A DNA stretch of 63,515 nucleotides from Caldimonas tepidiphila (lineage in GTDB: Bacteria; Pseudomonadota; Gammaproteobacteria; Burkholderiales; Burkholderiaceae_C), in the NCBI RefSeq assembly GCF_003569765.1, contig NZ_QXMG01000034.1, positions 1 to 63,515 on the forward strand, in the 5' to 3' direction. Of the stretch, positions 6,298-53,855 are shown in pieces. The position numbers and the translations under genes are program-made. The notes below the pieces were generated by a model. It did not search any database, was not told the DNA's origin, and saw only the letters and a program-made list of their open reading frames with translations. Every line of letters starts with the position of its first letter. Position 1 is the stretch's first letter.

Positions 6298-6686
6298 ATC
6301 CGGTCCTCGAGAGCGTTCAAGACAGCCGCGCATTATCGCCGCAAGCACGGGCACGGGAACTGCCGCACCCCGCTTCCTCGACACAAGTTCACGCTTGCCC
6401 GGGGGCGCGCGACCGGTGGCTTCGTGCCGGCTTGTCAAGCCCCCACTCATCCACTTTTCCTGTGGATAACTTTGTGGGTAAACCCCCCTCGACTGCCCGC
6501 GAAGCCCCATTTCATGCGGCTTTGAACATTTTGCCGCAAACTTAAGCATCAAAAAGCAGTGACAAATCAAGCACTTGCACCGCATTACGAGAGCGTGACA
6601 GCAGCACTCGCACGCAAGTCCCGGATGCGCCGGCTTGTGGAGTTCTCGCCTCGGACGGGCATGCTCCCTGCCCCGGGAGCGCGCTG
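6298..6686. other. Divergent intergenic region between exbB and xseA
   Basis: About 390 bases with no credible gene. It is clearly AT-richer than its surroundings between 6440 and 6600. It holds a cluster of DnaA-box-like nonamers (6447-6481) and must contain the promoters of the exbB run and of xseA. I could not pick out convincing -35/-10 pairs. Confidence 0.6.
6447..6481. promoter_or_regulatory. Cluster of DnaA-box-like nonamers
   Basis: TGTGGATAA at 6461-6469 is a perfect DnaA box (reverse of TTATCCACA). TGTGGGTAA at 6473-6481 differs by one base, and TCATCCACT at 6447-6455 matches 7 of 9 in the opposite orientation. The first two are in direct repeat, 12 bases apart. Whether DnaA binds here to regulate exbB or xseA is an inference. 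Confidence 0.45.
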
Positions 6687-34291: not shown

Positions 34292-34321
34292 GGGCCCGCG
34301 CGGCCCGCGGTGCGCGGGCCC
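34292..34321 (+). terminator. GC-rich perfect inverted repeat after hrpA
   Basis: GGGCCCGCGC and GCGCGGGCCC form a perfect 10-base-pair stem with a 10-base loop, 10 bases past the hrpA stop. There is no T-run. It is a probable transcription end or RNA-stabilising hairpin separating hrpA from the signalling island. Confidence 0.45.
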
Positions 34322-34435
34322 CCGGGCGGCGGCCTCGGGAATCGGAGCATTCCTGCTCGGGCTTATCCTGATGCGTCCGGCCTCGTGCCCGGCCGAAATC
34401 CCACTCACGTCTCCTGCCAGGCCAGCCCCGAAGCC

Positions 34436-37400: not shown

Positions 37401-37498
37401 TCTTCGCCCGGCCGCTGCCGCTCGAGGACGTCACCGACTATCTCGAGCAAGCGGCGCCGGGCCCGGCCCTGCGGCCGCCGCGGCTGCCCGTCTCCTGA
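34436..37498 (+). CDS. PAS-GAF-PAS diguanylate cyclase/phosphodiesterase (GGDEF-EAL)
   Basis: A 1020-residue cytoplasmic c-di-GMP enzyme with no transmembrane segment. Domain order: PAS (about 30-145), PAS with PAC (about 155-280), GAF (about 295-435), PAS/PAC (about 460-570), GGDEF (about 575-740) and EAL (about 760-1005). Both catalytic motifs are intact: RRGGDEF near residue 660 and MEALVRWRHP near 787, with DDFGTGYSS and KLDRTFV later in the EAL domain. Either or both activities may therefore operate, controlled by the PAS/GAF sensors. The ATG at 34436 starts MTLPDPLP; the longer open frame upstream is not family-like. A BLUF gene follows 93 bases later. Confidence 0.93.
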   Translation: MTLPDPLPILDPPPVMPTGEGGGAVPCSPGLSEWMFESSPDCVKVLDLDGSLLAMNGNGQCAMEIDDFGRWRGRAWTSFWPQDGRPLMEAALEAARQGRVGHFDAFCPTAKGSPRWWDVKVTPILGSGGRVERLLSVSRDVTALQRSREELRETASRLQFTLEAAEIGDWDLNLQGRTMRCSLRCGRCFGYAEPVEDWSCETFFEHVHPEDRADVRATIEEALCRHHDWRFQCRVVWPDGSVHWISAHGSVYRSAGKVERMLGIVVDITAQKRGEALALGQKKVLELAISGAPLPVLLDALARVAEERSGGLVKASILLLDEDGRHLRHGAAPSLPEGYNAAIDGVAIGPRVGSCGTAAHLGRPVIVRDIANDPLWADFRDLALAHGLRACWSQPILSFEGRVLGTLASYCGEVREPTVRERESMAMLVNTAALVLDQRREAEERRAAESALRASEERFRTLVSATSAIVWTASTAGCFDEPQPTWTAFTGQPFEALQGRGWLDAVHPDDRGTTTAMWLHATRGGVLPQFEHRLRRADGSYRHMSVRAVPLAGPDGAVREWAGIHTDITERKQAELHLRHLATHDTLTGLPNRNYLNEHLQELLRFAPRDGRIAVMLIDLDRFKQLNDSMGHEAGDALLCEVARRFKSVLRAGDVVARRGGDEFVVVAHCADGRESAERIAARLLQALAPPVSIGGAEVFPSASIGIAMSPEHGGTREELFQHADIAMYRSKAAGRNCHHFFLPEMSVVAKRRMTLELELRAALENEEFELHYQPRLRVGTLRSVGMEALVRWRHPERGLVSPLEFIPVAEETGMIEALGLWVLRRACIDTRRLVVRLGRPLRVSVNLSGRQLRSPQLVPEVRQILEQTGLDPGLLELELTESAFIEDMESSAETLRALKALGVQLAVDDFGTGYSSISYLRRFPVDVVKLDRTFVTQASEGVSRYGFIKAICDLARALNLTVVAEGVEDADTLDLLKRVACDEVQGYLFARPLPLEDVTDYLEQAAPGPALRPPRLPVS

Positions 37499-37591
37499 AA
37501 CGCGCCATGGCCTCGCCCCGCGTCGCGCCCCGGCTTCCGGCGAGCCGATCGCCGGTTCCGCTGCCGCTGCACCTCCGGAAGGACCGATGAA

Positions 37592-38029
37592 ATGCCTCAC
37601 GTCCACCGCGTCTTCTACGTCAGCCGGGCCCGGGTCGATCCCTGCGGGCCCGAGCCGCGCCGGATCCTCGAGGTCGCCACCGGGCGCAATGCGCGACTCG
37701 GGGTCACCGGGCTGCTGTTCTTCTCGGGGGATCACTTCGCGCAGGTGCTCGAGGGCCCGCGCGCCGCGCTGGAGGAGGTGATGGACTCCATCCGCCGGGA
37801 CCCGAGGCACGAGATGCTGCTGGAGTGGCCCGTCACCCCTGCCGGGGGGGAGCGCTGGTTCCCCTCGTGGGCGATGGCCTACCTCTTCGACGAGCGGCTC
37901 GAGGCGCTGATCGAGCGGCTCGGCCGGCTGGGCGAGCCGCTTCCGGCGCTGGAGGCGACGGCAGGAGAGCTGCTGGCGGCGGCGGACCTGTCCCGCCTCG
38001 GCCTGTTCAGGGCGGGCGATAAGGCCTGA
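37592..38029 (+). CDS. Stand-alone BLUF-domain blue-light sensor
   Basis: A 145-residue protein that is essentially one BLUF domain (about residues 4-98) plus a helical cap. The flavin-site residues are all visible: Tyr9 in RVFYVSR, Asn33 in GRNARLGVTGLL, Gln51 in FAQVLEGPR, and Trp93/Met95 in PSWAMAY, matching Tyr21, Asn45, Gln63, Trp104 and Met106 of AppA. FAD binding and a blue-light response are therefore likely. The ATG at 37592 follows GGAAGGA. It has no output domain, so it must act through a partner. The GGDEF-EAL protein upstream and the kinase downstream are the obvious candidates. Confidence 0.92.
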   Translation: MPHVHRVFYVSRARVDPCGPEPRRILEVATGRNARLGVTGLLFFSGDHFAQVLEGPRAALEEVMDSIRRDPRHEMLLEWPVTPAGGERWFPSWAMAYLFDERLEALIERLGRLGEPLPALEATAGELLAAADLSRLGLFRAGDKA

Positions 38030-40590: not shown

Positions 40591-42519
40591 ATGTCCCTCG
40601 TCCGCAAGCCCCTTGCCGCTGCCGACGCTCCGTTCGCCGTGCACGCTGCCGCCGGCGTGGTGTCCAAGCAGGTCGCCCGCGACGCCGACCAGCAGCGCAA
40701 GCGCGCCCGCACGCTGGCCAAGCAGCAGCAGGCCGCCGAGCGCGTCGCCGCCGCCTCCAGCCAGCTCTCCTCGGGCATCAACGAGGCGGCGTCGGCCGCC
40801 GAGGAGCTCAAGCGCGCGACGCAGCAGATCGCCACCGGTGCCGAGGAGGCCGCGGGCGCGGCGCAGGAATCGCTCGCCGCGATGAACCAGGTCTCGGGCT
40901 CGATCACGCGCCAGCTCCAGGCCGTCACCCTCGCGCAGAACATGGCGCAGGGCATGCAGACGCTCGCCGCCCAGATCAACGGCGAGGTGCAGGCCACGGT
41001 CGGCAACGTCGCCACCGCCGCGGACCGCCAGGCCGAGTCGGTCAAGATGATGACCGAGCTCGAGCGCCAGGCGGCCAACATCGGCGAGATCGTCAAGGCC
41101 GTGGCGCGCATCGCCGACCAGACCAACCTGCTCGCGCTCAACGCCGCGATCGAGGCCGCGCGCGCCGGCAAGCACGGCAAGGGCTTTGCGGTGGTCGCTG
41201 ACGAGGTGCGCACGCTCGCCGAGACCTCGGAGAAGAGCGCCAAGCAGATCCAGGATCTCGTCGGCCAGATCCAGGGCGAGGTGCAGGTCATCGCCGAGGG
41301 CATCAACAATTCCGCCGAGCGCGTCAAGGGCGAGGTCCAGAAGGGCGGAGTGATCCTGCAGCAGCTTGAGCAGATCCGCATGGACGCGGCCGAGATCGCG
41401 GGCGGCGCCGCCGAGATCGCCACTGCCGCCGGTCAGAGCAACGTTGCCGCGCAGCAGGCGCTCAAGGGCGCCGAGCAGATCGCCGCCGCCGCCACCGAGC
41501 AGGGTGCGGCCTGCGAGGAGGCCAACAAGACCGTGGGCGAGCAGACGCAGGCGCTGGGCGTGTGCGAGCAGACCGCGCAGGGCCTGTCCGAGATCGCTGA
41601 CGAGCTGAAGAACTCCACCGACATCGCCAAGAGCGCCGAGGAGGTGGCCTCCTCCGCCGAGGAGCTGTCGTCGGCCGTGCAGGAGATCAATCGCTCGGCG
41701 AGCCAGATCATGGTGGCGCTCGAGCAGATCCGCAAGGGCGCGCAGTCCCAGGCCGCCGCGACCACCGAGTCCGCCGCTGCCGTGGCGCAGATCGAGAAGG
41801 GCGCGCAACTCGCCGAGCAGCGCGCGGTGCAGGGCGGAGAGCGCTCCAAGGCGATCGCCGCGCTGATGGGCGACAACAAGCGCAACCTCGACGAGCTGAT
41901 CACCGGCGTGTCCTCGAGCGCCGCCGCCACGCAGGCGAGCATCAAGCAGGTCAAGGACCTGGAGCTCGTGTCGCGCAAGATCGACAAGATCGTCGACGCG
42001 ATCACGCAGGTCAGCATCCAGACCAACATGCTCGCCGTCAACGGCAGCATCGAGGCGGCGCGCGCCGGCGAGTACGGCAAGGGCTTCGTGGTCGTCGCCA
42101 CCGACATCCGCAACCTTGCGCACGACTCGGCCGAGAACGCGGACCGCATCAAGGACATGGTCAAGTCGATCCAGGACCAGATCGGCCTGGTCGGGCGTGA
42201 CCTGCACGAGATCGTCACCGCGGCACACGGCGAGGTGGAGAGGGCCAAGTCGATCACTGCCTCTCTGCTGAAGATCGAGGGCGACGTGCAGCAGATCGAG
42301 CGCGGCAACAAGGAGGCGGTCGCCGCCTCGCAGGAGATCGCCGCCGCCGTCTCGCAGGTCAAGGTCGCGGTGCAGCAGATCGCCTCGGCCGCCACCGAGG
42401 CCGAGAAGTCCGCCGAGGAGGCCGCCAGCGCCGCGAAGCAGCAGTCGCAGGGGGCGGAGGAGCTGGCCGCCGCGATCGAGGAGATCGCCTCGCTCGCCGA
42501 CGAGCTCCAGAGCGCCTGA
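40591..42519 (+). CDS. Soluble chemoreceptor with two signalling domains (DosM-like)
   Basis: A 642-residue protein made almost entirely of alanine/glutamate/glutamine-rich coiled coil, with no transmembrane segment and no recognisable sensor domain. It carries two receptor hairpin tips. The first, around residues 172-205, contains QTNLLALNAAIEAARAG-x-GKGFAVVADEVR. The second, around 470-505, contains QTNMLAVNGSIEAARAG-x-GKGFVVVATDIR. Each tip is the CheA/CheW contact site, so one chain could insert twice into an array. The double-tip architecture recalls DosM, which stabilises a cytoplasmic array in Vibrio cholerae. It is the first gene of the operon. The ATG at 40591 follows CAGGAG. Confidence 0.9.
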   Translation: MSLVRKPLAAADAPFAVHAAAGVVSKQVARDADQQRKRARTLAKQQQAAERVAAASSQLSSGINEAASAAEELKRATQQIATGAEEAAGAAQESLAAMNQVSGSITRQLQAVTLAQNMAQGMQTLAAQINGEVQATVGNVATAADRQAESVKMMTELERQAANIGEIVKAVARIADQTNLLALNAAIEAARAGKHGKGFAVVADEVRTLAETSEKSAKQIQDLVGQIQGEVQVIAEGINNSAERVKGEVQKGGVILQQLEQIRMDAAEIAGGAAEIATAAGQSNVAAQQALKGAEQIAAAATEQGAACEEANKTVGEQTQALGVCEQTAQGLSEIADELKNSTDIAKSAEEVASSAEELSSAVQEINRSASQIMVALEQIRKGAQSQAAATTESAAAVAQIEKGAQLAEQRAVQGGERSKAIAALMGDNKRNLDELITGVSSSAAATQASIKQVKDLELVSRKIDKIVDAITQVSIQTNMLAVNGSIEAARAGEYGKGFVVVATDIRNLAHDSAENADRIKDMVKSIQDQIGLVGRDLHEIVTAAHGEVERAKSITASLLKIEGDVQQIERGNKEAVAASQEIAAAVSQVKVAVQQIASAATEAEKSAEEAASAAKQQSQGAEELAAAIEEIASLADELQSA

Positions 42520-42550
42520 CCCACCCCACTGAACAGGAAGGAGGTGCGCG

Positions 42551-44152
42551 ATGAGCGCATCCGAACAGTTCTCCGCCGAAGGCGAGGACATCGAGGGCGG
42601 CAACAACCAGTTCGTCACCTTCTCGGTGGCGGGCGAGATGTTCGCCGTGCCGATGGGGCCGGTGCAGGAGATCATCCGCGTGCCCGAGGTGGCGAGGCTG
42701 CCGCTGGCGCCGGCCTCGCTGGCGGGCCTGGCGAACCTGCGCGGCCGCGTGCTGCCGATCATCGACCTGCGCCGCCTCTTCGGCTGCGAGGAGTGCGCGC
42801 ACGACGACGCGACCCGCGCGCTCGTGATCAACCTCGGCCAGCCGCTGGGCTTCGTGGTGGACCGCGTCGCGAGCGTCGTGAGCGTCGAGTCCGGCGAGAT
42901 CGAGGCGGCCGACAGCATCCAGTCGATCGTTGCCGCGGACTACCTCACCGGCGTCATCAAGCGCGCTGCCGGGGACGGCAGCGAGATGCTGCTGACGGTG
43001 GACTTCTCGAAGCTGGTCGAGGGCCACTTCAGTGGCATCGGCGGCGGACTCGCGTCGGGCCGCGCGGGCGCCCGCGTCGAGGCCGGCGGCGGGCAGGCTG
43101 ACGACGAGTCCGACGGCAGCGACGAGCTGCGCCTGGTGTCCTTCTCGGTTGCAGGCCAGGAGTACGCGCTCGACATCGCCGAGGTGCAGGAGATCGTGCA
43201 GATGCCCGACTCCCTGAGCGTGCTGCCGAACGCGCCGGGCCACGTGGTCGGCGTGATGTCGCTGCGCCAGCGGCTGCTGCCGCTGGTGAGCCTGCGCCGG
43301 CTCTTCGGGCTGCCGAGCGTCGAGGACGGCGCGCAGCAGCGCATCGTCGTCACCGGGCTGCCGGGCGGGCTGCACGTCGGCCTCGTGACCGACGCGGTCA
43401 AGGAAGTGATGAGCGTGCCGCGCTCGCAGGCCGAGGCGATGCCCGGCGTGCTGGCGGCCGACGAGCAGCTCCGGGAGTTCTCGTCGATCTGCCGCCTCGA
43501 CGGCGGCAAGCGGCTGGTGTCCATCATCGCCACCGACCGGCTGCTGCACATGCCGCAGATCGGCGAGGCGATCGAGGGCGCCGGGCGCCTCGCGCAGTAC
43601 CCGGGAGCCGCCGGCGAGGAAGCGACGAACCGCAACGAGGACGAGATGAACGAGAGTTCCGACGACGACACCCAGGTGGTGATCTTCCGCCTGGGCGCCG
43701 AGGAGTTCGGCGTGCCGATCATGAGCGTGCAGGAGATCGTGCGCGTGCCCGAGGCGCTGACGCGCGTGCCCAAGACGCCGGCCTTCGTCGAGGGCGTGAT
43801 CAACCTGCGCGGCACCGTGCTGCCGGTGATCGACCAGCGCACGCGGCTCGGGCTGCCGACGATCGAGCGCAACGAGGGCCAGCGCATCATGGTCTACCTG
43901 TTCGCGGGCATGCGCACCGGGTTCATCGTCGACTCGGTGGCCGAGGTGCTGCGCATCCCGCGCAGCCAGATCGTGCCGGCGCCGGCGCTGTCGCACGACC
44001 AGAGCCGGTTGATCGGCCGCGTCGCCAACCTCGACGGCGGCAAGCGCCTCGTGATGCTGATCGAGCCCGAGCACCTGCTGCAGGGCCAGGAGATCGGCGC
44101 GATGTCGGGCTTCGCCGACGGCGGCGACACGGAGCTGCCGCTGGCAGCCTGA
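42551..44152 (+). CDS. Triple CheW-domain scaffold protein
   Basis: A 533-residue protein with three successive CheW domains, at about 18-157, 192-335 and 372-518. Each contains the CheW pattern of a regulator strand (VTFSVAGEMFAVPM, VSFSVAGQEYALDI, VIFRLGAEEFGVPI), a VQEI helix, and the G-V-x-LRG-x-V-LP-type segment (ANLRGRVLPIIDLR, MSLRQRLLPLVSLR, INLRGTVLPVIDQR). Linkers are acidic and flexible. Ordinary CheW has one domain of about 160 residues. Three in one chain could bridge neighbouring kinase/receptor units. The middle domain deviates at the receptor-contact segment (LRQR in place of LRG). Confidence 0.93.
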   Translation: MSASEQFSAEGEDIEGGNNQFVTFSVAGEMFAVPMGPVQEIIRVPEVARLPLAPASLAGLANLRGRVLPIIDLRRLFGCEECAHDDATRALVINLGQPLGFVVDRVASVVSVESGEIEAADSIQSIVAADYLTGVIKRAAGDGSEMLLTVDFSKLVEGHFSGIGGGLASGRAGARVEAGGGQADDESDGSDELRLVSFSVAGQEYALDIAEVQEIVQMPDSLSVLPNAPGHVVGVMSLRQRLLPLVSLRRLFGLPSVEDGAQQRIVVTGLPGGLHVGLVTDAVKEVMSVPRSQAEAMPGVLAADEQLREFSSICRLDGGKRLVSIIATDRLLHMPQIGEAIEGAGRLAQYPGAAGEEATNRNEDEMNESSDDDTQVVIFRLGAEEFGVPIMSVQEIVRVPEALTRVPKTPAFVEGVINLRGTVLPVIDQRTRLGLPTIERNEGQRIMVYLFAGMRTGFIVDSVAEVLRIPRSQIVPAPALSHDQSRLIGRVANLDGGKRLVMLIEPEHLLQGQEIGAMSGFADGGDTELPLAA

Positions 44153-44172
44153 GCGGGGAGCGGAGGCGGTTC

Positions 44173-45255
44173 GTGAGGAAGGTGCTCGTCGTCGACGATT
44201 CGGCGCTGATGCGCAAGCTGCTGGGCGGCGTGCTGGCGGAAGCCGGCTACGAGGTGCACGTGGCGCGCAACGGGCGCGAGGGCGTGGAGCAGTTGCTGGC
44301 GGTGCAGCCCGACGCGGTGACGCTGGACATCAACATGCCGGAGATGGACGGGCTGAGCGCGCTGTCGCTGATGATGGCGGCGCGCCCGACCCCGGTGGTG
44401 ATGGTGTCCTCGCTCACCGAGAAGGGGGCGCTCGCGACCTTCGAGGCGCTCGCGCTCGGCGCGGTGGACTTCATCGCCAAGCCCGGCGGCACCATCTCGC
44501 TGCACGTGGACGACATCCGCGCGCAGCTCGTCGAGAAAGTGGGCGCGGCCTGCCGGGCACGCGTCGGCCGCGCGTCGGGCGCCGCGGGGCAGCCCGCCGC
44601 AAAGCCGGCGGCACGGCCGGCCGTGCCTCCGCGAGCGGCGGCCCCGACCGCCGCCGCGCGGCCCGCGCCGGACGGGGCTGCGGTGCCCGGTGCGGTGCTG
44701 GTGGGCGTGTCCACCGGCGGGCCGCGCACGCTGGAGGAGATCCTGCCCAAGCTGCCGGCCGACTTCCCGTGGCCGGTGCTGATCGCGCAGCACATGCCGC
44801 TGAACTTCACCGACGCCTTCGCGCGCCGCATGGACGCGATGTGCCCGCTCGACGTGCGCGAGGTCGCAGCGCCGATGCCGCTCGAGCCCGGGCGGGTCTA
44901 CATCGGCCGCGCCGGCACCGACCTCGCGGTCAGCCTGCGCGGCGGCCAGCCCTACGCGCTGCCGCGCCCCGAATCGGCCGGCATGCCCTGGCACCCGTCG
45001 GTCGACGTGCTGGTCGACAGCGCCATGAAGGTGTTCGCGCCGCAGCAGCTCGTCGGCGTGATGCTCACCGGCATGGGCTACGACGGCGCCGCGGCGATGA
45101 CGCGGCTGCACCAGGCGGGGGGCCGCACGGTCGCCGAGTCCGCCGACACCGCCGTCGTGTTCGGCATGCCGCAGGAGCTGATCCAGCGCGGAGGCGCCTC
45201 GCTGGTGCTGCCCTGCGGCGCGATCGCCGCGCAACTGCGCAGCTGGCTGCGCTGA
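44173..45255 (+). CDS. cheB: Chemotaxis protein-glutamate methylesterase CheB
   Basis: CheB removes methyl groups from receptors when phosphorylated by CheA. The 360-residue protein has an N-terminal receiver (phospho-acceptor in AVTLDINMPEMDG) and a C-terminal esterase with the serine in GVSTGGPRTLEEIL, the histidine in AQHMPLNFTDAFARRMD and the aspartate in MLTGMGYDGAAAM. An alanine/proline-rich linker joins them. It starts with GTG at 44173, 20 bases after the triple-CheW gene. With CheR in the operon it implies that a receptor of this system is methylated. Confidence 0.95.
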   Translation: MRKVLVVDDSALMRKLLGGVLAEAGYEVHVARNGREGVEQLLAVQPDAVTLDINMPEMDGLSALSLMMAARPTPVVMVSSLTEKGALATFEALALGAVDFIAKPGGTISLHVDDIRAQLVEKVGAACRARVGRASGAAGQPAAKPAARPAVPPRAAAPTAAARPAPDGAAVPGAVLVGVSTGGPRTLEEILPKLPADFPWPVLIAQHMPLNFTDAFARRMDAMCPLDVREVAAPMPLEPGRVYIGRAGTDLAVSLRGGQPYALPRPESAGMPWHPSVDVLVDSAMKVFAPQQLVGVMLTGMGYDGAAAMTRLHQAGGRTVAESADTAVVFGMPQELIQRGGASLVLPCGAIAAQLRSWLR

Positions 45256-45274
45256 AGGAACAAAGGAATCCGTG

Positions 45275-45904
45275 ATGGGACTGAAGAAGACGAGCGACCG
45301 GACCGTGGCGCTGCACCTCGTCGAGCCGCGCGCCCACGCGCGCGACTTCGAGGGGCTCGTCGCCCAGCTCGGCGACGAGGACGCGGAAGCGCGCCGCTGG
45401 GCCGCGCGCGACCTCGCGACGCACGAGGCCGCGGCCGCGCCGCTGTGCGCCCGGCTGGCGCGGGAGGTCGACGCGAGCGTGCGCGCCGCGCTGTTCGCGA
45501 GCCTCGCGCGCATCGGCGGCGAGCCGGTGGTGCAGGGGCTGCTGCCACTGCTGCGCAGCGAGGACGCGGCGCTGCGCAACGGCGCGATCGAGGTGCTCGC
45601 CGGGCTGCCGGCAGCGGTGGCGCCGTCGATCGACGCGCTGCTCGCGGACGCCGACGGCGACGTGCGCATCTTCGCGGTCAACCTGCTGGGCGAGCTGCGC
45701 CACGCGGACGTGCCGCGCTGGCTGGGCCGGGTGCTGCTGGAGGAGACGCAGGTCAACGTGGTCGGCGCCGCGCTGGACCTCGCTGCCGAGGTGGGCGATG
45801 AGGCGATGCTGCCGGCGCTCGAGGCGGTGCGCGCGCGCTTCGCCGACGAGCCCTACATTTCCTTCGCCGCCGAGCTGGCGCAAGAGCGGATCCGCGCGGC
45901 ATGA
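45275..45904 (+). CDS. HEAT-repeat protein of the chemosensory operon
   Basis: A 209-residue all-helical protein with about five HEAT-type repeats of roughly 31 residues (for example GDEDAEARRWAARDLATHEAA, REVDASVRAALFASLARIGG, SEDAALRNGAIEVLAGLP, ADGDVRIFAVNLLGEL). HEAT repeats act as protein-binding scaffolds. It sits between cheB and cheR, and its stop overlaps the cheR start (ATGA), so it is likely a dedicated component. No canonical chemotaxis protein has this fold, and no function can be assigned beyond scaffold. The ATG at 45275 or the GTG at 45272 is the start. Confidence 0.85.
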   Translation: MGLKKTSDRTVALHLVEPRAHARDFEGLVAQLGDEDAEARRWAARDLATHEAAAAPLCARLAREVDASVRAALFASLARIGGEPVVQGLLPLLRSEDAALRNGAIEVLAGLPAAVAPSIDALLADADGDVRIFAVNLLGELRHADVPRWLGRVLLEETQVNVVGAALDLAAEVGDEAMLPALEAVRARFADEPYISFAAELAQERIRAA

Positions 45905-46773
45905 GAACCCCGAGCGTTTCATCGGCGGCGGGGTCGGACAAGCCGACCATCTCGGACGCGGACTTCGAGAAGTTCGCCGAGTTCTTCTACCGCAAGACGG
46001 GGATGCGCTTCGACGCGGGCAAGCGCTACTTCGTCGACAAGCGCCTCGTCGAGCGCATCGAGGCGACGGGCGCGTCGAATTTCCGCGACTACTTCGTCTC
46101 GCTGCGCTTCGAGGCCTCGGGCGCGGAGCTGCAGCACCTAGTCAACTCGATGACGGTCAACGAGACCTACTTCTTCCGCGAGGCCTACCAGTTCGACTGC
46201 CTGGTGCGGCACATGCTCGACGAGGTCGCGGCGCGCAAGCAGCCGGGCGAGCGCATCCGCATCTGGTCGGTGCCCTCGTCCACCGGCGAGGAGCCGTACT
46301 CGATCGCGATCTACCTGCTCGAGCGCTGGGCGCAGATCGACGCCTACGAGGTCGAGATCCTGTCCTCGGACATCGACACCAACGTGCTCGCCGCGGCGCA
46401 GCGCGGCGTGTTCTCGCAGCGCTCGGTGGCGCAGCTGCCCCAGGCCTACCTCGACAAGTACTTCAAGCCGATGCCCGACGGGCAGTGGCGCATCTCGCGC
46501 GAGCTGGTCGAGTCGGTCGAGTTCAGCCGCGTCAACCTCACCGACGCGAACGACACGCGGCGCTTCCGCGACATCGACGTGATCTTCTGCCGCAACCTGC
46601 TGATCTATTTCGACGACCTGTCGCGGCGCGTCGCCGCCGAGGCGATGTACGACGCGCTGGTGCCCGGGGGCTTCATCTGCCTGGGTCATTCGGAGTCGAT
46701 GAGCCGGATCTCGTCGCTGTTCAACGTGCGCCGCTTCCCCGACGCCATGGTTCACCAGAGGCCCCTGAAATGA
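45901..46773 (+). CDS. cheR: Chemotaxis protein methyltransferase CheR
   Basis: CheR methylates receptor glutamates using S-adenosylmethionine. The 290-residue protein has the N-terminal helical domain (FAEFFYRKTGMRF, NSMTVNETYFFREAYQF) and the methyltransferase domain with SVPSSTGEEPYSIAIYLLE, LSSDIDTNVLAAA, VIFCRNLLIYFD and GGFICLGHSES. The SAM-loop reads VPSSTGEEP, where many CheR proteins have a glycine/cysteine form (AGCSTGEEP). The starts and stops overlap both neighbours by 4 bases. Confidence 0.96.
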   Translation: MRTPSVSSAAGSDKPTISDADFEKFAEFFYRKTGMRFDAGKRYFVDKRLVERIEATGASNFRDYFVSLRFEASGAELQHLVNSMTVNETYFFREAYQFDCLVRHMLDEVAARKQPGERIRIWSVPSSTGEEPYSIAIYLLERWAQIDAYEVEILSSDIDTNVLAAAQRGVFSQRSVAQLPQAYLDKYFKPMPDGQWRISRELVESVEFSRVNLTDANDTRRFRDIDVIFCRNLLIYFDDLSRRVAAEAMYDALVPGGFICLGHSESMSRISSLFNVRRFPDAMVHQRPLK

Positions 46774-47186
46774 CCCGCATCCTCGTCATCGACGATGCCG
46801 CCACCGTGCGCATGTACCACCGCAAGCTGCTCGCCGACGCGGGCTGGCAGGTCGAGGAGGCCGGAAACGGGCTCGAGGGGCTGGAGCAGGTGCACGCGCA
46901 GGCCGGGGACGCGGCCTTCGACCTCTACGTCGTGGACATCAACATGCCCAAGATGGACGGCTACAGCTTCGTGCGCGAGCTGCGCCGACTGCCCGCGCGC
47001 CACCAGGCGCCGGTGGTGATGGTCTCCACCGAGGCGCAGGTGCAGGACCGCAGCGCGGCGCTGGCCGCGGGCGCCAACGCCTATCTCGTCAAACCCGCGC
47101 GGCCAGGGGCGCTCGTGCTCACCGCCGCGCTGCTGCTCGGCGAGCGCGCGACCGCGCTGCGCGCCGCCCGGAAGGTGCCGCAATGA
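46770..47186 (+). CDS. cheY: CheY-like single-domain response regulator
   Basis: A 138-residue receiver. The acidic pair is in ILVIDDAATVRMYHRKLL, the phospho-acceptor aspartate in LYVVDINMPKMDGYSF, the conserved Ser/Thr in VVMVSTEAQ and the lysine in AYLVKPARPG. It has no output domain, so it would act by binding a target when phosphorylated by CheA. It is encoded between cheR and cheA with 4-base overlaps on both sides, so it is the best candidate for the primary output of this system. Confidence 0.93.
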   Translation: MTRILVIDDAATVRMYHRKLLADAGWQVEEAGNGLEGLEQVHAQAGDAAFDLYVVDINMPKMDGYSFVRELRRLPARHQAPVVMVSTEAQVQDRSAALAAGANAYLVKPARPGALVLTAALLLGERATALRAARKVPQ

Positions 47187-49441
47187 ATGCCGCCGAACTC
47201 CTCGACCAGTTCGTCACCGAGGCGCGCGAGTGCCTGGAGGCGATCGGCCAGCGCCTGCTCGACGTCGAGCGCGATCCAGCCAACGCGGCGCTGCTCAACG
47301 ACCTGTTCCGCTCGGTGCACACGCTCAAGGGCAACTGCGGCCTGTTCGAGTTCAAGGCGCTCGAGCGCGTGGTGCATGCCGGCGAGGACGTCCTCGACCG
47401 GGTGCGCCACGGCGAGCTGGCCTACGGGCCCGACCTCGCCGACGCGCTGCTCGAGGCGATGGACTACACCGCCGAGCTCGTCGACCGCATCGAGCGCCAG
47501 GGCTCGCTCGACGGCGCCGCCGAGGACCGTTCGCACCGGCTCGCCAGCGCGCTGCGCAGCCTGCTCGACGGCGCGGTGCCCGCCCCGGCGGCGCAGGCGG
47601 TGGTGAGGCCGCAGGCGCAGCCGGCGGCCGCGCCGCACTGGCTCGCCCGCCTGCCTCGGGAGCTGCTCGACGCGCACGAGGGCGCCACCGCGCTGCGCTA
47701 CCTGCCCGAGGCCGAGTGCTTCTTCAAGGGCGAGGACCCGTGGCGCCTGGTGCTGACGGCGCCGGGGCTCGAGCACGTGCAGGCGCTGCCGGCCGTGCCC
47801 TGGCCGCAGGGGGAGGGTTTCGCCGACTGGGACTGCTACCGCTGCAACCTCGATCTCGTGCTGCTGAGCACGGCGCCGCTGGCGGATCTGCAGCAGCACT
47901 TCCGCTTCGTGCCGGAGCAGCTGCAGTGGCATGCGGTGGCGGCCGACGCGGGCGACAGCCCCGTGCTGCGCGAGCAGGCGCTGCGGCTGTGGGGCGAGCA
48001 GATCGAGCTGCTGTCGCGCAGCGGCGGCAGCCCCGGTGCGACCGAGGCGGGCCGCCGCGCGCTGCGCGGGCTGCTGCAGGCGGCCCCGGCCGAGGGCGGC
48101 GCGGCGCTCGCCGCGCTCGACGCGCTGCCCGCGGGCGTCGCGGCGGCGGAGCTCGCCGCCTGGGCGCGCCGCCACGGCCCCGCGGCGGTCGGCGCCGAGG
48201 CGCAGGCGGCGGACGCCGCCGAGGCCGGCGAGGCGCGCCGCGACGAGGAGGGCGGCGGCGAGCGCACTCAGCGCGTGCTCAAGGTCGGCCAGGAGAAGAT
48301 CGACCGGCTGATGGACCTGATCGGCGAGATGGTGGTGGCCAAGAACGCGCTGCCCTACCTGGCCGAGCGCGCCGAGAGCGTGTTCGCGCAGCGCGAGCTG
48401 GCGCGCGAGATCAAGGCGCAGTACTCGGTCATCAACCGCATCGCCGAGGACATGCAGCGCGCCATCATGGAGGTGCGCATGCTGCCCGTGGGCGTGATCT
48501 TCCAGCGCTTCGGCCGGCTGGTGCGCGACATCTCGAAGAAGCTCGGCAAGGAGGTGCAGCTCCTCATCGAGGGCGAGGACACCGAGGCCGACAAGAACGT
48601 GATCGAGGCACTGGCCGACCCGCTGATCCATGTGCTGCGCAACAGCCTGGACCACGGCATCGAGCCGCCGGCGCGGCGCCTGGCCGCCGGCAAGCCGGCG
48701 CAGGGCACGATCCGCATCCGCGCCCGGCAGGACAGCGACCGCGTCGTGATCGAGATCGACGACGACGGCGCCGGCGTCGACGCGGCGCGGGTGCGCGAGA
48801 AGGCGGTGGCGCAGGGGCTGGTGCCGGCCGAGCGCGCCGCGACGCTCTCCGACGAGGACGCGGTGCAGCTAATCTTCCTGCCCGGCTTCTCGACCGCCGA
48901 GACGATCTCCGACCTCTCCGGGCGCGGCGTCGGCATGGACGTGGTGCGCACCGCGGTCGAGCGCGTCAACGGCCAGGTCGCGCTGTCGAGCCGCAGCGGG
49001 CTGGGCACGACGATCCGGCTGTCGCTGCCGCTGTCGATGGCGGTCACCAACGTGATGATCGTCGAGGCCGCGGGCCGCCGCTTCGGCGTGCCGATGGACC
49101 TGATCGTCGAGACGGTGCGCGTGCACGCCGAGGACATCCACCGCTTCAAGCAGGCACGCACCGCGGTGCTGCGCGGGCGCATCGTGCCGCTGCGCGGCCT
49201 CGGGGAGCTGCTCGCGCTCGACGCGCCGGAGCTCGCCAACGACGACGGCGAGCTTGCCGTGCTGGTGGTGCGCATCGCCGGCGAGAACGTCGGCCTGGTG
49301 GTCGACCAGTTCCACGGCGCCAGCGACATCATCCTCAAGCCGCTCGAGGGCGTGCTCGCCGGCCTCACCGGCTTCGCCGGCACCGCGCTGATGGGCGACG
49401 GCAGCGTGCTGATGGTGCTCAACCCGAAGGAGCTGATCTGA
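47183..49441 (+). CDS. cheA: Chemotaxis histidine kinase CheA
   Basis: A 752-residue kinase. P1 (HPt) carries the phospho-acceptor His46 in SVHTLKGNCG. Residues about 140-355 replace the usual CheY/CheB-docking P2 with an unrelated-looking domain (ALRYLPEAECFFKGEDPWRLVL...), rich in alanine and tryptophan. From about 365 the P3 dimerisation helices (ERTQRVLKVGQEKIDRLMDLIGEMVVAKN), the P4 kinase domain (HVLRNSLDHGIEPP, DDGAGVDAARVREKA, FSTAETISDLSGRGVGMDVV) and the C-terminal CheW-like P5 domain follow. The stop overlaps the STAS-like start (TGATG). Altered P2 suggests non-standard regulator docking. Confidence 0.96.
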   Translation: MNAAELLDQFVTEARECLEAIGQRLLDVERDPANAALLNDLFRSVHTLKGNCGLFEFKALERVVHAGEDVLDRVRHGELAYGPDLADALLEAMDYTAELVDRIERQGSLDGAAEDRSHRLASALRSLLDGAVPAPAAQAVVRPQAQPAAAPHWLARLPRELLDAHEGATALRYLPEAECFFKGEDPWRLVLTAPGLEHVQALPAVPWPQGEGFADWDCYRCNLDLVLLSTAPLADLQQHFRFVPEQLQWHAVAADAGDSPVLREQALRLWGEQIELLSRSGGSPGATEAGRRALRGLLQAAPAEGGAALAALDALPAGVAAAELAAWARRHGPAAVGAEAQAADAAEAGEARRDEEGGGERTQRVLKVGQEKIDRLMDLIGEMVVAKNALPYLAERAESVFAQRELAREIKAQYSVINRIAEDMQRAIMEVRMLPVGVIFQRFGRLVRDISKKLGKEVQLLIEGEDTEADKNVIEALADPLIHVLRNSLDHGIEPPARRLAAGKPAQGTIRIRARQDSDRVVIEIDDDGAGVDAARVREKAVAQGLVPAERAATLSDEDAVQLIFLPGFSTAETISDLSGRGVGMDVVRTAVERVNGQVALSSRSGLGTTIRLSLPLSMAVTNVMIVEAAGRRFGVPMDLIVETVRVHAEDIHRFKQARTAVLRGRIVPLRGLGELLALDAPELANDDGELAVLVVRIAGENVGLVVDQFHGASDIILKPLEGVLAGLTGFAGTALMGDGSVLMVLNPKELI

Positions 49442-49692
49442 TGGGCATCCGTTATCTCAAGGAACACGCCGCGCTGGAAGGCCAGGTGACGGTGGAGGAC
49501 GCGGAGGCGCTGATGCAGTACCTGCGCGAGGCGGAGAAGCCGACGGTGCATCTCGGCCGTTGCGAGCACCTGCATGCGGCGGTGCTGCAGGTGCTGCTGG
49601 CGCTCGCGCCGCGCATCGACGCGCTGCCGGCGGACCCGTGGCTGGCGGCCGTGCTCGGCGCGGCCGGCGAGGAGCAGCCATGTCCGGCCTGA
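49441..49692 (+). CDS. Small STAS-like protein coupled to cheA
   Basis: An 83-residue protein overlapping cheA by one base (TGATG) and the next gene by 13 bases. The segment TVHLGRCEHLHAAVLQVLLAL matches the core of STAS domains, where a strand ending in Asp/Gly-Cys is followed by a helix beginning with the Ser/Ala of the phosphorylation loop. Here alanine replaces the usual serine or threonine. STAS proteins regulate partners by binding, as in anti-anti-sigma factors. The assignment is by pattern only; the tight coupling shows it belongs to the system. Confidence 0.6.
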   Translation: MGIRYLKEHAALEGQVTVEDAEALMQYLREAEKPTVHLGRCEHLHAAVLQVLLALAPRIDALPADPWLAAVLGAAGEEQPCPA

Positions 49693-50753
49693 GGACCCTG
49701 GTGCAGGACGCGGCGGCGGCCGCCCCGTCGCTGTGGCGGCGCTTCGCGCTGCGCTGGCCCCGGCGCGCGCCCGGGCCGGCGGCGATCGTCCCCGCCGCCG
49801 ACGAGCCCTGCCTCGCCACCGGGCGCATGGGCGAGCTCGACGCGCAGGTCTACGCCCAGCTGCAGCGCGCCATCTCGCTGTCGGAGACGCAGGCGCTCGA
49901 CGGCATGGCGCGCGCGGGCGACTTGCGGCGCCTGTCGTCGCGGCTGGTGGACTACCTGCAGCATGCCCGCGAGCAGAGCGAGGCGATGCAGGAAGGCATC
50001 GAGCAGAACGCGGCGATCATCGCCGAGCTCGGCGCCTTCGTGCGGCAGCTGCCGCTGCAGATCGCCGAGGAGCGCCAGCATTTCGGCCGCCTCGTGAGCG
50101 AGGTGAAGAAGCTGCAGGATCTCACCGACACGATCCGCCGCATGGCGCGCCAGACCGAGATCCTGGCGATCAACGCCGCGATCGAGGCGGCCCGTGGCGG
50201 CGAGGCCGGCCGGGGCTTCGCGGTGCTCGCCGGCGAGGTGCGGCGGCTCGCGACCGAGTCGAACGCGACCGCCGGGCGCATCGACCACGACATCGCCGCG
50301 CTGGTGAAGACGGTCGAGAACGGCTACAGCGAGGAGTTCCAGGCCCGCACCCGGCACAACGAGGCCGAGTCCGCGCGCCTGTCGGCGCTAACGCGCCAGC
50401 TCGACGAGAGCTACGTCGACATGCGCGAGTTCTACCGCATGCTGATGACCGCGGTGACGCAGCACAACACCGAACTCGACCACGGCATCGCCGGGCTGCT
50501 CGACACGGCGCAGTTCCACGACGTGTTCAAGCAGATCGTCGACCGCGTCGCGCCCGCCTTCGACGCGCGCCAGGCCCTCGCGGCCGAGCTGGTCGCGCGG
50601 CTGCGCGGCGGCCGGCTGCACAACCCCGACCTCGACGAGCGCGCACAGGCGCTGGTGGCCGACTACCTGGCCAGCGAGGCGCTGCACCGCGACCCCGACG
50701 CGGCGACCGAGGCCCAGCCCGGCGAGCCGGGTGCGCGCATCGAACTGTTCTGA
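49680..50753 (+). CDS. Soluble MCP-like protein with CheZ-like C-terminal motif
   Basis: A 357-residue soluble protein. Its middle (about 150-195) is a chemoreceptor hairpin tip (RRMARQTEILAINAAIEAARGGEAGRGFAVLAGEVRRLATES), although the flanking coiled coil is short. The C-terminal helix contains TAQFHDVFKQIVDRV, with Asp281 and Gln285 spaced as the catalytic Asp143 and Gln147 of E. coli CheZ (FQDLTGQ). It could therefore bind the array and dephosphorylate a CheY. No other CheZ is in the window. The phosphatase idea is my inference; a plain cytoplasmic receptor is the alternative. The ATG at 49680 overlaps the STAS-like gene. Confidence 0.75.
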   Translation: MSGLRTLVQDAAAAAPSLWRRFALRWPRRAPGPAAIVPAADEPCLATGRMGELDAQVYAQLQRAISLSETQALDGMARAGDLRRLSSRLVDYLQHAREQSEAMQEGIEQNAAIIAELGAFVRQLPLQIAEERQHFGRLVSEVKKLQDLTDTIRRMARQTEILAINAAIEAARGGEAGRGFAVLAGEVRRLATESNATAGRIDHDIAALVKTVENGYSEEFQARTRHNEAESARLSALTRQLDESYVDMREFYRMLMTAVTQHNTELDHGIAGLLDTAQFHDVFKQIVDRVAPAFDARQALAAELVARLRGGRLHNPDLDERAQALVADYLASEALHRDPDAATEAQPGEPGARIELF

Positions 50754-50765
50754 AGGAGGCCCCGC

Positions 50766-51137
50766 ATGGCCCGCATCCTGTTGATCGACGACGACGAGCT
50801 GCTGCGCGACACCGTGCACCAGATGCTGGAGCTCGACGGACACCAAGTGACCGAGGCCGCCGATGGCGGCGAGGGGCTGCGGCGCTTCGCGCAGGGCCGC
50901 TTCGACCTGGTGATCACCGACGTGCTGATGCCGCAGGTCGACGGCGCGCAGGTGATCGTCGAGCTGCGCCGCAGCCACGCGGCGCTGCCGATCCTCGCGA
51001 TCTCGGGCGGGCGGCGCGTGCTGTCGCCCGAGTTCAACCTGCACACCGCCGACCTCGCCGGCGCGACGCACCGGCTGGCCAAGCCCTTCGGGCGCGCGCA
51101 GCTGCAGCAGGCGGTCGCGCAGGCGCTCGGCGCCTGA
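50766..51137 (+). CDS. Single-domain response regulator
   Basis: A 123-residue receiver. It begins ARILLIDDDELLRDTVHQML, with the phospho-acceptor aspartate in DLVITDVLMPQVDG and the lysine in HRLAKPFGRAQL. The alpha-4 region (LAISGGRRVLSPEFNLHTADLAGA) is longer than in CheY and has serine-glycine-glycine at the switch site, more like receivers paired with PAS kinases. It starts 12 bases after the MCP-like gene and lies directly before the hydrolase gene. Confidence 0.92.
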   Translation: MARILLIDDDELLRDTVHQMLELDGHQVTEAADGGEGLRRFAQGRFDLVITDVLMPQVDGAQVIVELRRSHAALPILAISGGRRVLSPEFNLHTADLAGATHRLAKPFGRAQLQQAVAQALGA

Positions 51138-51153
51138 GCCGCGGAGCAAGACG

Positions 51154-51966
51154 ATGGATGCTCCTGCGATCCTGCACCGCAACAACGTCCGCATCCGCGG
51201 CGAGGGGCGGCGGGTGCTGCTCTTTGCGCACGGCTTCGGCTGCGACCAGTCGATGTGGCGGCACGTCGCGCCGGCCTTCGAGGCCGGCTGGCGCGTGGCG
51301 TGCTTCGACCATGTCGGTGCCGGCCGCTCGGACCGCGCCGCCTACGACAGCCGCCACGGCAGCCTCGAGGGCTACGCGCAGGACGTGATCGGGATCTGCG
51401 AGGCGCTGGGGGGCGACCCGGTCTGCTTCGTCGGCCATTCGGTGGGTGCGATGATCGGCGTGCTGGCCGCGCTGCGCGCGCCGCAGCGCTTCGAGCGCCT
51501 GGTGCTCGTCGCCCCGTCGCCCTGCTACCTCGACGACCCGCCGCACTACCGCGGCGGCTTCGCTCGCACCGACCTGGAGGGCCTGCTCGAGCTGATGGAC
51601 CGCAACCACCTCGGCTGGGCCAGCTTCCTCGCCGCCACCGTGATGCAGAACCCGGAGCGCCCGGAGCTCGCCGAGGAGCTGCGCGAGAGCTTCTGCGCGC
51701 TCGACCCGCTGATCACGCGCGAGTTCGCGCGCGTCACCTTCCTCTCCGACCATCGCGCGCTGCTGCCCGAGCTGCGCACGCCGGCGCTGATCATGCAGTG
51801 CGCGCAGGACATGGTCGTGCCGGCCGAGGTGGGCGAGTACCTGCACCGGCAGCTGCGCGGCAGCACGCTGGTGCGCATGCGCGCCACCGGCCACTGCCCG
51901 CATGTGAGCCATCCGCAGGAGACGCGCGCGGTGATCGCCGACTACCTGGCGCAGGCCGCCGCCTGA
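51154..51966 (+). CDS. RsbQ/KAI2-type alpha/beta hydrolase
   Basis: A 270-residue cytoplasmic hydrolase of the RsbQ/DWARF14/KAI2 group. FAHGFGCDQSMWR gives the oxyanion region, FDHVGAGRSD and SPCYLDDPPHYRGGF are group-specific, and the triad is Ser96 (GHSVG), Asp219 (AQDMVVP) and His247 (GHCPHVSHP), at the same residue numbers as in Bacillus RsbQ. RsbQ works with the PAS protein RsbP to signal energy stress through an unidentified small molecule. Here the next gene, 6 bases on, is a PAS kinase whose first PAS resembles RsbP's. It probably generates or receives a hydrophobic ligand. Confidence 0.92.
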   Translation: MDAPAILHRNNVRIRGEGRRVLLFAHGFGCDQSMWRHVAPAFEAGWRVACFDHVGAGRSDRAAYDSRHGSLEGYAQDVIGICEALGGDPVCFVGHSVGAMIGVLAALRAPQRFERLVLVAPSPCYLDDPPHYRGGFARTDLEGLLELMDRNHLGWASFLAATVMQNPERPELAEELRESFCALDPLITREFARVTFLSDHRALLPELRTPALIMQCAQDMVVPAEVGEYLHRQLRGSTLVRMRATGHCPHVSHPQETRAVIADYLAQAAA

Positions 51967-51972
51967 TCCCCG

Positions 51973-53493
51973 ATGCCGCACTCAGCCCAGGAACTGCCGC
52001 TCGACCCCGACACGATGCCGTGCGGGCTGCTCAGCATCGCGGACGACGGGCGCGTGCTCGCCGCGAACGCGACGCTGCTGCACATGCTGCAGCTGCCGCC
52101 CGGCGCGTTGCAGGGGCGCCGCTTCGATGAGCTGCTGAGCCCGGGCGCGCGCATCTATCACCAGATGGTGCTGCGGCCGGCGCTGCAGCTCGAGGGCCGT
52201 GTCGAGGAGGCCTCGCTGATCCTGCGCGCCGCCGACGGCAGCGACGTGCACGTGCTCTTCAACGCCAGCCGCAGGCTGCAGGGCGAGGGCGACGGCGGGG
52301 CGAGCGACTGCGTGCTGCTGCGCCTGGAGCAGCGCAAGGCGCTGGAGGACAAGCTGCTGCTGGCGCAGCGCACCGCGGAGCAGATGCCGGGCGTGCTGTT
52401 CCGGCTGGTGAGCGACGCGCACGGCCGCTACCGCCTGCCCTATGCGAGCAAGGGCCTCGCCGAGCTGAGCGGGGTGGAGCCGGCGACGCTGGTCGACGAC
52501 GCCTCGCCGCTTTTCCTCGCGGTCCATCCGGACGACCGGGAGGACCTGAAGGCCGGGCTCGAGCGCAGCCGCGCGACGCTGCGCACGCAGCCGGCGACGC
52601 TGCGCCTCATCGGCGCCGGGCAGCGCGTGCGCTGGGTGCGGGTGCACAGCCAGGTGCACCAGGAGCTCGGCGAAGCGGTGGTCTGGCAGGGCGCGATCTA
52701 CGACGTGACCCAGCAGCGCCAGATCGACGAGCGGCTGCGCGAGTTCGACAAGCTCCAGGCGATCGCGACGCTGGCGGCCGGCATCGCGCACGACTTCAAC
52801 AACCTGCTCGGCTCGATCATGGGGCTCGCGGAGCTGTGCCAACTCGAGGCGGCCGAGGGCTCGCGCCAGGCGCGCAACCTCGCGCGCATCCTGTCCGCGA
52901 GCCACAAGGCGGGCGCGCTCGTGCGGCAGCTGCTGGATTTCTCGCGCCAGACGCCGCAGCAGATCGAGACGCTGGCGCTGGACGAGCTGCTCGAGCGCAG
53001 CCGCCCGCTGTTCGAGGCCGGCCTGCCGCCCGGCGTGCGGCTGAGCGTGAAGGCCGCGGCCGGATGCTGGGTGCGGGTCGATGCGGTGCGCATGGAGCAG
53101 GCGCTGCTCAACCTCGTGAACAACGCCGTGCACGCGATGCGCAGCCGCGGCGGGCTGGTGCGCATCGTGGCCGATCTCGTGCCCGCGCCGCCCGAGGTCG
53201 ACCCCGTGCCCGGGCGGCGCAAGATGGCGCGGCTGCGCGTGATCGACGACGGCGAGGGCATCCCGCCGGAGTTGCAGCCCAAGATCTTCGAACCCTTTTT
53301 CACCACCAAGCCTGTCGGCGAGGGCACCGGCCTCGGGCTGGCGGCGGTGCACGGCATCGTCACCAGCCACGGCGGCCGCGTCACCGTCGTCAGCCACCCC
53401 GGGGTGGGCAGCGTCTTCAGCCTGCTGCTGCCCTGGGCATGTCCCCAGGCGGCGGAGAGTCCCCGCCACCCGAACGAAGAAAGCAAACGATGA
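51973..53493 (+). CDS. Soluble PAS-PAS sensor histidine kinase paired with the RsbQ-like hydrolase
   Basis: A 506-residue kinase without transmembrane segments. The N-terminal PAS (about 10-115: CGLLSIADDGRVLAANATLLHML, GARIYHQMVLRPALQLEG, VEEASLILRAADGSDVHVLFNA) is the type found beside RsbQ-like hydrolases. A second PAS/PAC (about 135-255) follows, then HisKA with His273 in AHDFNNLLGSIMGL (NtrB-like) and HATPase motifs NLVNNAVHAM, DDGEGIP and GTGLGLAAVHGI. The stop overlaps the following receiver gene (ATGA). It probably adds a second input to the chemosensory pathway through the adjacent receivers. Confidence 0.9.
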   Translation: MPHSAQELPLDPDTMPCGLLSIADDGRVLAANATLLHMLQLPPGALQGRRFDELLSPGARIYHQMVLRPALQLEGRVEEASLILRAADGSDVHVLFNASRRLQGEGDGGASDCVLLRLEQRKALEDKLLLAQRTAEQMPGVLFRLVSDAHGRYRLPYASKGLAELSGVEPATLVDDASPLFLAVHPDDREDLKAGLERSRATLRTQPATLRLIGAGQRVRWVRVHSQVHQELGEAVVWQGAIYDVTQQRQIDERLREFDKLQAIATLAAGIAHDFNNLLGSIMGLAELCQLEAAEGSRQARNLARILSASHKAGALVRQLLDFSRQTPQQIETLALDELLERSRPLFEAGLPPGVRLSVKAAAGCWVRVDAVRMEQALLNLVNNAVHAMRSRGGLVRIVADLVPAPPEVDPVPGRRKMARLRVIDDGEGIPPELQPKIFEPFFTTKPVGEGTGLGLAAVHGIVTSHGGRVTVVSHPGVGSVFSLLLPWACPQAAESPRHPNEESKR

Positions 53494-53855
53494 AACACCT
53501 CCTGATCGTCGACGATTCCGCCACCATGCTGATGAGCCTCAAGTCCTCGCTGGAGATCGCCGGCTTCAAGGTCGACACCGCCGCCGACGGCGCCCAGGCG
53601 CTCGACAAGCTCAAGGCCGGCCTCAAGCCCGACCTGATGATCACCGACATCAACATGCCGAAGATGGACGGGCTGGAGCTGATCCGGGCGGCACGCCAGA
53701 TCCTGCGCTTCACGCCCATCCTCGCGCTCACCACCGAGAGCCAGCAGGCCAAGCGCGACGAGGCGAAGAAGCTCGGCGCGAGCGGCTGGCTGGTCAAGCC
53801 GATCGGCAGCGCCGACCTCGTGAAGGTGATCAGGCAGCTGCTGCCGGGCGCCTGA
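53490..53855 (+). CDS. CheY-like response regulator (partner of the PAS kinase)
   Basis: A 121-residue receiver with LLIVDDSATMLMSLKSSLE, the phospho-acceptor aspartate in LMITDINMPKMDGLEL, the threonine in ALTTESQQAK and the lysine in WLVKPIGSADL. The 4-base overlap with the kinase gene suggests they are a pair, while the sequence is strongly CheY-like, so CheA could also phosphorylate it. It is the last gene of the operon. Confidence 0.93.
   Translation: MKHLLIVDDSATMLMSLKSSLEIAGFKVDTAADGAQALDKLKAGLKPDLMITDINMPKMDGLELIRAARQILRFTPILALTTESQQAKRDEAKKLGASGWLVKPIGSADLVKVIRQLLPGA

Follow-up and report, generated by a model that had tools for sequence, protein, structure and literature searches.

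In contig NZ_QXMG01000034.1 of Caldimonas tepidiphila, taken here as a window of 63,515 nucleotides, we have identified a compact predicted chemosensory operon spanning positions 40591–53855. An original prediction, made from the sequence alone, had described thirteen tightly spaced genes on the same strand, and open reading frame (ORF) calls, Pfam matches and conservation bear this out; judged from start and stop coordinates, the largest overlap is 13 bases (STAS/MCP2) and the widest gap 31 bases (DosM/CheW3). The genes are:

40591..42519, + strand: DosM-like MCP with a double signalling domain, soluble, 642 amino acids (PF00015 in two stretches, E 1.4e-65)
42551..44152, + strand: triple CheW, CheW3 (PF01584 in three stretches, E 1.3e-98)
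44173..45255, + strand: CheB receiver-methylesterase, GTG start (Pfam; NF001965 above cut-off)
45272..45904, + strand: HEAT-repeat protein (Pfam; tblastn match in 26/26 related loci)
45901..46773, + strand: CheR methyltransferase (Pfam)
46770..47186, + strand: CheY1, single-domain receiver (Pfam)
47183..49441, + strand: CheA (Pfam: Hpt, dimerisation, HATPase and CheW domains)
49441..49692, + strand: small STAS-like protein (STAS_2, E 6.6e-4, below cut-off)
49680..50753, + strand: 24H/McpA-like MCP, MCP2, soluble (Pfam; CheZ-like motif QFHDVFKQ at residues 278–285, C-terminal RIELF)
50766..51137, + strand: Rec2, single-domain receiver (Pfam; a 60% identical protein precedes a stressosome-type module in locus L057)
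51154..51966, + strand: RsbQ-type alpha/beta hydrolase (RsbQ chain 1wom, E 5.1e-102)
51973..53493, + strand: RsbP-type PAS, second PAS and histidine kinase (Pfam and sequence comparison)
53490..53855, + strand: Rec3, single-domain receiver, the conserved F9 receiver (Pfam; best match 38–81% identical in 26 loci)

The first gene is placed at the ATG at 40591, an alternative in-frame GTG at 40435 being possible. Codon-position ranking recovered 10 of the 13 genes; for CheY1, STAS and Rec3 it chose a rival ORF or none, and these calls were decided by Pfam and conservation. The predicted triple CheW, CheB, CheR, HEAT protein and three receivers were all recovered by Pfam, the receivers having no output domains, and the STAS-like protein was also borne out, with a homologue in most related loci. 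The altered P2 region foreseen in CheA agrees with the finding that no P2 model was matched between the Hpt and dimerisation domains at E up to 0.01. As for the "two soluble receptors", their solubility holds, as neither MCP shows a membrane segment by hydropathy (maxima over 19 residues of 1.18 and 1.26), but the word receptor was overstated, since Pfam recognises no sensory domain in either.

The cluster is almost certainly a member of the F9 chemosensory class. Excerpts of PMC9321776 and PMC7534058 give DosM together with CheW3 as the signature of this class, and the window carries both, namely a DosM with two tandem MCP signalling domains and a CheW with three concatenated domains (Pfam). 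By similarity search, the nearest CheA homologues sit in DosM/CheW3 operons. Relatives were collected by CheA (E 1e-105 or better) from 16 of 298 other genomes of the family and 6 of 397 other genomes of the phylum, with CheA 40–79% identical over all or part of its length. These 22 comprise 21 wide loci (L055–L075) and one 3.7-kb contig (L049) excluded from the counts; a search of the order with whole MCP2 yielded many generic MCPs, so neighbourhoods were picked mainly via CheA, and five further wide loci (L076–L080) chosen by MCP2 similarity bring the total to 26 related F9 loci. The gene order DosM-CheW3-CheB-HEAT-CheR-CheY-CheA-STAS-receiver-MCP is repeated in the CheA-chosen relatives, and a DosM homologue, 41–83% identical, is labelled at the head of the operon in 22/26 related loci. 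By tblastn, HEAT was found in all 26 and STAS in 24, the remaining two matching weakly in a separate comparison; both are therefore standard F9 components. CheW3 was missed by tblastn in four of the 26: in L058, L067 and L078 the stretch starts at or after CheB, and in L072 another gene stands before CheB. An alternative cellular functions (ACF) or type IV pilus (Tfp) class was rejected, the DosM and CheW3 signature being present instead.

As far as the sequence goes, DosM and CheW3 place the window cluster in an established, poorly understood class. Full F9 clusters were reported in 64 of 2,781 species (PMC9321776, in excerpt). In the excerpted text of PMC7534058, the array of Vibrio cholerae cluster I (F9) is two-layered and cytoplasmic, with DosM essential and function unknown, and F9 is flagellar by phylogeny, yet its cellular role is called unclear; the case of a well-characterised flagellar class, which would have told against the original prediction, thus holds only by half. 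Other F9 loci carry further components: PAS kinases of other kinds at some of them, and ParA-like ATPases in L068 and L072 (Pfam) and in L069 and L070 (read from sequence). These ParA/MinD-like ATPases behind the F9 genes are possible positioning factors for cytoplasmic arrays.

MCP2 is a member of a 24H/McpA-like family marked by a CheZ-like motif (FQDxxxQ) and an (I/V)ELF tail. We aligned 36 family rows, starting from 26 F9-side rows (the window and F9 loci) and 18 of 29 other MCP2 matches (44 in all) and dropping eight, which were five duplicates of wide loci, two wrong segments (L003, L004) and one ordinary MCP match without motif and tail (L021); the remaining MCP2 matches were treated as ordinary MCPs, outside the one-by-one motif check. 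The MCP signalling tip is fully conserved. Outside the tip region, the only positions kept in all 36 rows are Q278, D281, Q285 and the terminal F357, while E355 is conserved in 33 rows and L356 in 32; Q stands just before the motif D in 33/36 rows, the window member having FHD. Motif and tail are present in 20 of the 21 CheA-chosen F9 loci, or 25 of 26 with the five MCP2-chosen loci, including the tail variants IEFF, MELF and IQLF and the motif variants QMQD and QGQD. The sole exception has no 24H MCP, and a protein of the CheX family adjoins its receiver:

L073:11925-12590: CheX/CheC-family protein in an F9 operon without 24H MCP (Pfam, E 1.4e-8)

Among named genomes, a pattern scan with whole MCP2 found no relative and alignment with the C-terminus succeeded, giving at least 595 matches to the C-terminal pattern, of which 367 were confirmed. 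In the best 80 of these 367 the tail was IELF or VELF without exception (80/80), although the motif was built into the selection and matching over the full length biases towards the tail. In 56 of these 80 loci a receiver ends inside the upstream stretch searched, and 8 are cut by a contig end; of the remaining 16, 15 were inspected and 10 had the receiver just beyond that stretch. An AlphaFold model of MCP2 (mean predicted local distance difference test score, pLDDT, 83.4; predicted template modelling score, pTM, 0.54), with a helix at 43–310 and a tail under 50, neither supports nor refutes a CheZ fold. Two observations on related proteins may be added. A PilZ-PAS-MCP protein at L072:8760-10910 belongs to the same motif family (QFQDITRQ, tail IQLF), which suggests a cyclic di-GMP input. 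Loci L114, L115 and L118, F7-like as far as gene content indicates, hold a receiver, an McpA-like MCP (VELF), CheA and an MCP ending in DFERF or DFVRF; these ends fit the pentapeptide pattern of CheR tethers.

The module also exists as a stand-alone protein, one copy being encoded in the same genome on contig 59, a contig with FliM, where it precedes a receiver and CheA:

L218:3593-4129 (contig 59): stand-alone module protein, 178 amino acids, with QFQDMASQ and SVELF

No Pfam or NCBIfam model names this protein, which was matched in 121 of 200 genomes of the family, its own included. Thirty loci were fetched, three of which were not parsed by the pattern; in all 27 parsed loci the protein has QFQDxxxQ and either IELF or VELF, and a receiver follows within 700 bases; CheA lies in the flank in 23 of them. 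In hhalign comparisons the stand-alone profile matched the MCP2 family at 93% (E 3e-7) and CheZ at 0.8%.

The active site of CheZ is DxxxQ, and an AXXFQ motif is described in CheZ (PMC7750401). The D and Q of this active site are present in 36/36 rows of the MCP2 family. Run with default filters against 4,663 ORFs, a profile of 30 CheZ proteins matched solely ELF-tailed MCPs (ELF-MCPs), 39 of 80, and none of 53 other MCP-like proteins and no reversed sequence; with filters off and E up to 1, it matched 72 ELF-MCPs and two others, the best reversed match being 0.39. In the opposite direction, the profile of the MCP2 C-terminus had CheZ as its best match outside the MCP family (E 7.6e-5; best reversed match 0.38). 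The Pfam CheZ model matched eight of nine relatives (seven at 9.7e-5 to 1.2e-3, one at 0.2, none in the ninth), the nine being drawn from the favourable end, the eleven best matches, and the NCBIfam CheZ model gave 1.1e-5 and 8.4e-5 in 2/2 of the Pfam-scanned relatives.

Several results weigh against a CheZ-like role. No CheZ model reaches its cut-off on the family, and the window's own MCP2 is unmatched by the Pfam and NCBIfam models. The Ala of the AXXFQ motif is not conserved in the family (by eye), and the C-terminal CheY-binding peptide of CheZ is absent, the tail being (I/V)ELF against D(D/E)LLxSLGF. When the CheZ profile was run on a first database, reversed sequences scored as well as 6.4e-4, so that just the best MCP match (4.8e-5) beat this control. 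The genome has two ordinary CheZ genes, and therefore the module would not be its sole phosphatase. Moreover, masking 12 motif columns removed nearly all CheZ similarity, nothing passing default filters; in a PDB search with the MCP2 C-terminal profile, CheZ (1kmi) appeared at E 4.5 amid noise, with unrelated coiled coils scoring better; and hhalign of the MCP2 family with CheZ gave a probability of 3.6% and P 0.012, against P 0.11–0.73 for four control families. The resemblance to CheZ rests mostly on the motif. These last three results, the signal lost in masked models, unrelated coiled coils ranking first and the weak hhalign score, favour an alternative that we consider rather unlikely, namely that FQDxxxQ came to resemble CheZ by convergence or by chance within a coiled coil, the invariant residues making some other receiver contact. 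Against such convergence, the CheZ profile found ELF-MCPs alone among the ORFs, the Pfam and NCBIfam CheZ models match relatives too, and even with the motif masked, filters off and E at most 1, ten ELF-MCPs and no other ORF were matched, although at E at most 10 the numbers were 28 and 5.

It is equally doubtful that we are dealing with an ordinary F9 operon whose 24H MCP serves as a second receptor, its FQDxxxQ and ELF tail docking CheR, CheB or CheD with no phosphatase role. Its fully conserved tip would suit a receptor, its hydrophobic-E-x-F tail resembles CheR pentapeptide tethers, and McpA-like proteins are described as receptors in excerpts of PMC7184735 and PMC7534058; yet Pfam finds no sensory domain in the window's MCP2, the stand-alone version, without an MCP part, still precedes a receiver, and in L073 CheX stands in place of the 24H MCP. 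A phosphatase role of MCP2 is what we infer from these comparisons. Among the matches listed from open-access papers, no title or abstract start linked McpA/24H receptors with CheZ, a negative that counts for little.

The hydrolase-PAS-kinase branch of the original prediction is present, and on gene order and sequence it is the published RsbQ/RsbP-PAS module, in which, according to excerpts of PMC3183031, RsbQ goes with an N-terminal PAS and, in Gram-negatives, a histidine-kinase output. The RsbQ homologue (1wom match) lies directly upstream of the PAS-kinase gene. Compared by eye with the excerpted text of PMC3183031, the window PAS has MPCG, that is the hPhG motif with Cys, and is without DIT; its F-alpha helix, R-I-Y-H-Q-M-V..P, may match the RsbQ-contact consensus classes, as judged by eye. 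This PAS is 32–41% identical to those of four other RsbQ-linked kinases, and a PDB sequence search with the RsbP-like PAS gave nothing useful. For the kinase domain the relationship differs: its identity is 54% with the kinase of L057, 37% with L067 and 28% with L071, as compared with 28–31% for the four other RsbQ-linked kinases. In these three F9 loci, two STAS genes come after Rec2, together with HATPase, SpoIIE and kinase genes, and we read the set as putative RsbR-, RsbS- and RsbT-type genes. Pfam was applied to L067, whose kinase carries RsbU_N, and to L071, which has RsbRD_N; for L057 it covers the SpoIIE and kinase genes, the remainder being read from translations. A kinase closest to an F9-associated one but joined to a PAS of RsbQ-linked type is most simply explained by an exchange of input, for which L057 and, to a lesser degree, L067 provide the basis. 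Speaking against such an exchange, the L071 kinase, stressosome-linked too, is no nearer than the RsbQ-linked ones, and RsbQ was found in none of the 26 related F9 loci (among 297 other genomes of the family, 40 have a homologue at E 1e-60). All the same, Rsb-type stress inputs of F9 operons look exchangeable, and an energy-stress input to the window array is likely. That the RsbQ-PAS-kinase genes form a separate two-component system inside the F9 operon, not feeding the array, is improbable: the module is known on its own (PMC3183031, in excerpt) and RsbQ lies elsewhere in at least nine of the 16 other family genomes that carry F9, but the genes overlap or nearly so, the nearest counterparts of the kinase and Rec2 belong to a relative's F9 locus, and the conserved F9 receiver, Rec3, is encoded after the kinase, which puts the module within the operon.

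Taken as a whole, we lean slightly towards a cytoplasmic chemosensory operon of class F9 that has a side branch for energy stress and an array-docked, CheZ-like MCP2. DosM and CheW3 would build a two-layered cytoplasmic array carrying CheA, which CheR and CheB would adapt. When energy or carbon is limiting, the RsbQ hydrolase may activate the N-terminal PAS of the kinase, which would phosphorylate an adjoining free receiver, Rec2 or Rec3, shared with CheA or parallel to it. The 24H MCP would dock in the array via its conserved tip and, through the CheZ-like motif and (I/V)ELF tail, dephosphorylate the neighbouring receiver, so that signal termination would be built into the array. The intracellular array, adaptation enzymes and two inputs of the original prediction fit this explanation, but the class had already been described, the first MCP is of the scaffold type (DosM) and MCP2 may be an output phosphatase. 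The wider proposition, for which we see about even chances, is that the module QFQDxxxQ...(I/V)ELF, found both at the C-terminus of 24H/McpA-like MCPs, whether in F9 or in F7-like clusters, and on its own ahead of flagellar cheY-cheA, is a receiver phosphatase of CheZ-like type that has gone unrecognised. These "chemoreceptors" would then be array-docked phosphatases, one of which the present operon would link to a stress input of Rsb type that can be exchanged.

Among known systems, V. cholerae cluster I shares, by description, a DosM-type MCP without membrane part, triple CheW, CheA, CheB, CheR and CheY, whereas the window has an extra receiver and the RsbQ-PAS-kinase module inside the operon, and its 24H MCP is soluble while VC1394 is reported with a transmembrane region. 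Deletion of the V. cholerae F9 cheA gave no phenotype detected under standard conditions (PMC7534058, in excerpt), a further point against the proposed function. From the RsbQ/RsbP-PAS modules, which share the adjacent RsbQ gene, the PAS features and the kinase output, the window's differs in its place inside a chemosensory operon and in its kinase, whose closest match is a stressosome-linked F9 kinase. The stressosome (RsbR-RsbS-RsbT) is matched in domain order behind the F9 genes and Rec2 of L057, L067 and L071 and is absent from the window, where RsbQ-PAS takes its place. In Bacillus, these are two sensor types feeding sigma-B, and their apparent swap behind F9 operons suggests that the arrays report general stress. 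The McpA-like (CttP) receptors of F7 are likewise MCPs with a conserved C-terminus, and V at pentapeptide position 2 fits VELF; the window's MCP2 differs in being without a transmembrane segment. With CheZ, the MCP2 family shares FQDxxxQ with its D/Q spacing, a long helix, a linker, a C-terminal tail and a gene beside a receiver, and differs in its MCP tip, its tail and its scores below CheZ cut-offs. In excerpts of PMC7184735, the C-terminus of McpA is strikingly conserved with its role unclear, and genomes with stage 1 or 2 F7 systems have cheZ in the F6 cluster only. If the CheZ-like activity is true, this would explain the conservation of the McpA C-terminus, provide the phosphatase that had been missing and open the F9 and F7 classes to a first direct assay.

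Outside the operon, the predicted lack of flagellar and pilus genes nearby was upheld in 20 further window ORFs scanned (a subset of all; E 1e-5), where no such family was found apart from a match of ORF 5656-6585 to the shared MotA/TolQ/ExbB family, the product being probably ExbB; a flagellar operon was rejected on this ground. On contig 89 of the same genome, a second protein with three CheW matches (512 amino acids) lies beside a 980-amino-acid MCP-like protein (L217:8467-12944), and blastp found no CheA on this 13-kb contig. Downstream of the operon, branched-chain amino-acid transporter genes are convergent, and upstream a NarL-type kinase/regulator pair lies on the same strand, 366 bases away. 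Just upstream of this PAS kinase/LuxR pair, at 34310-38029 of the window, a PAS-GAF-GGDEF-EAL protein is followed by a BLUF blue-light protein, making this a sensory-rich neighbourhood.

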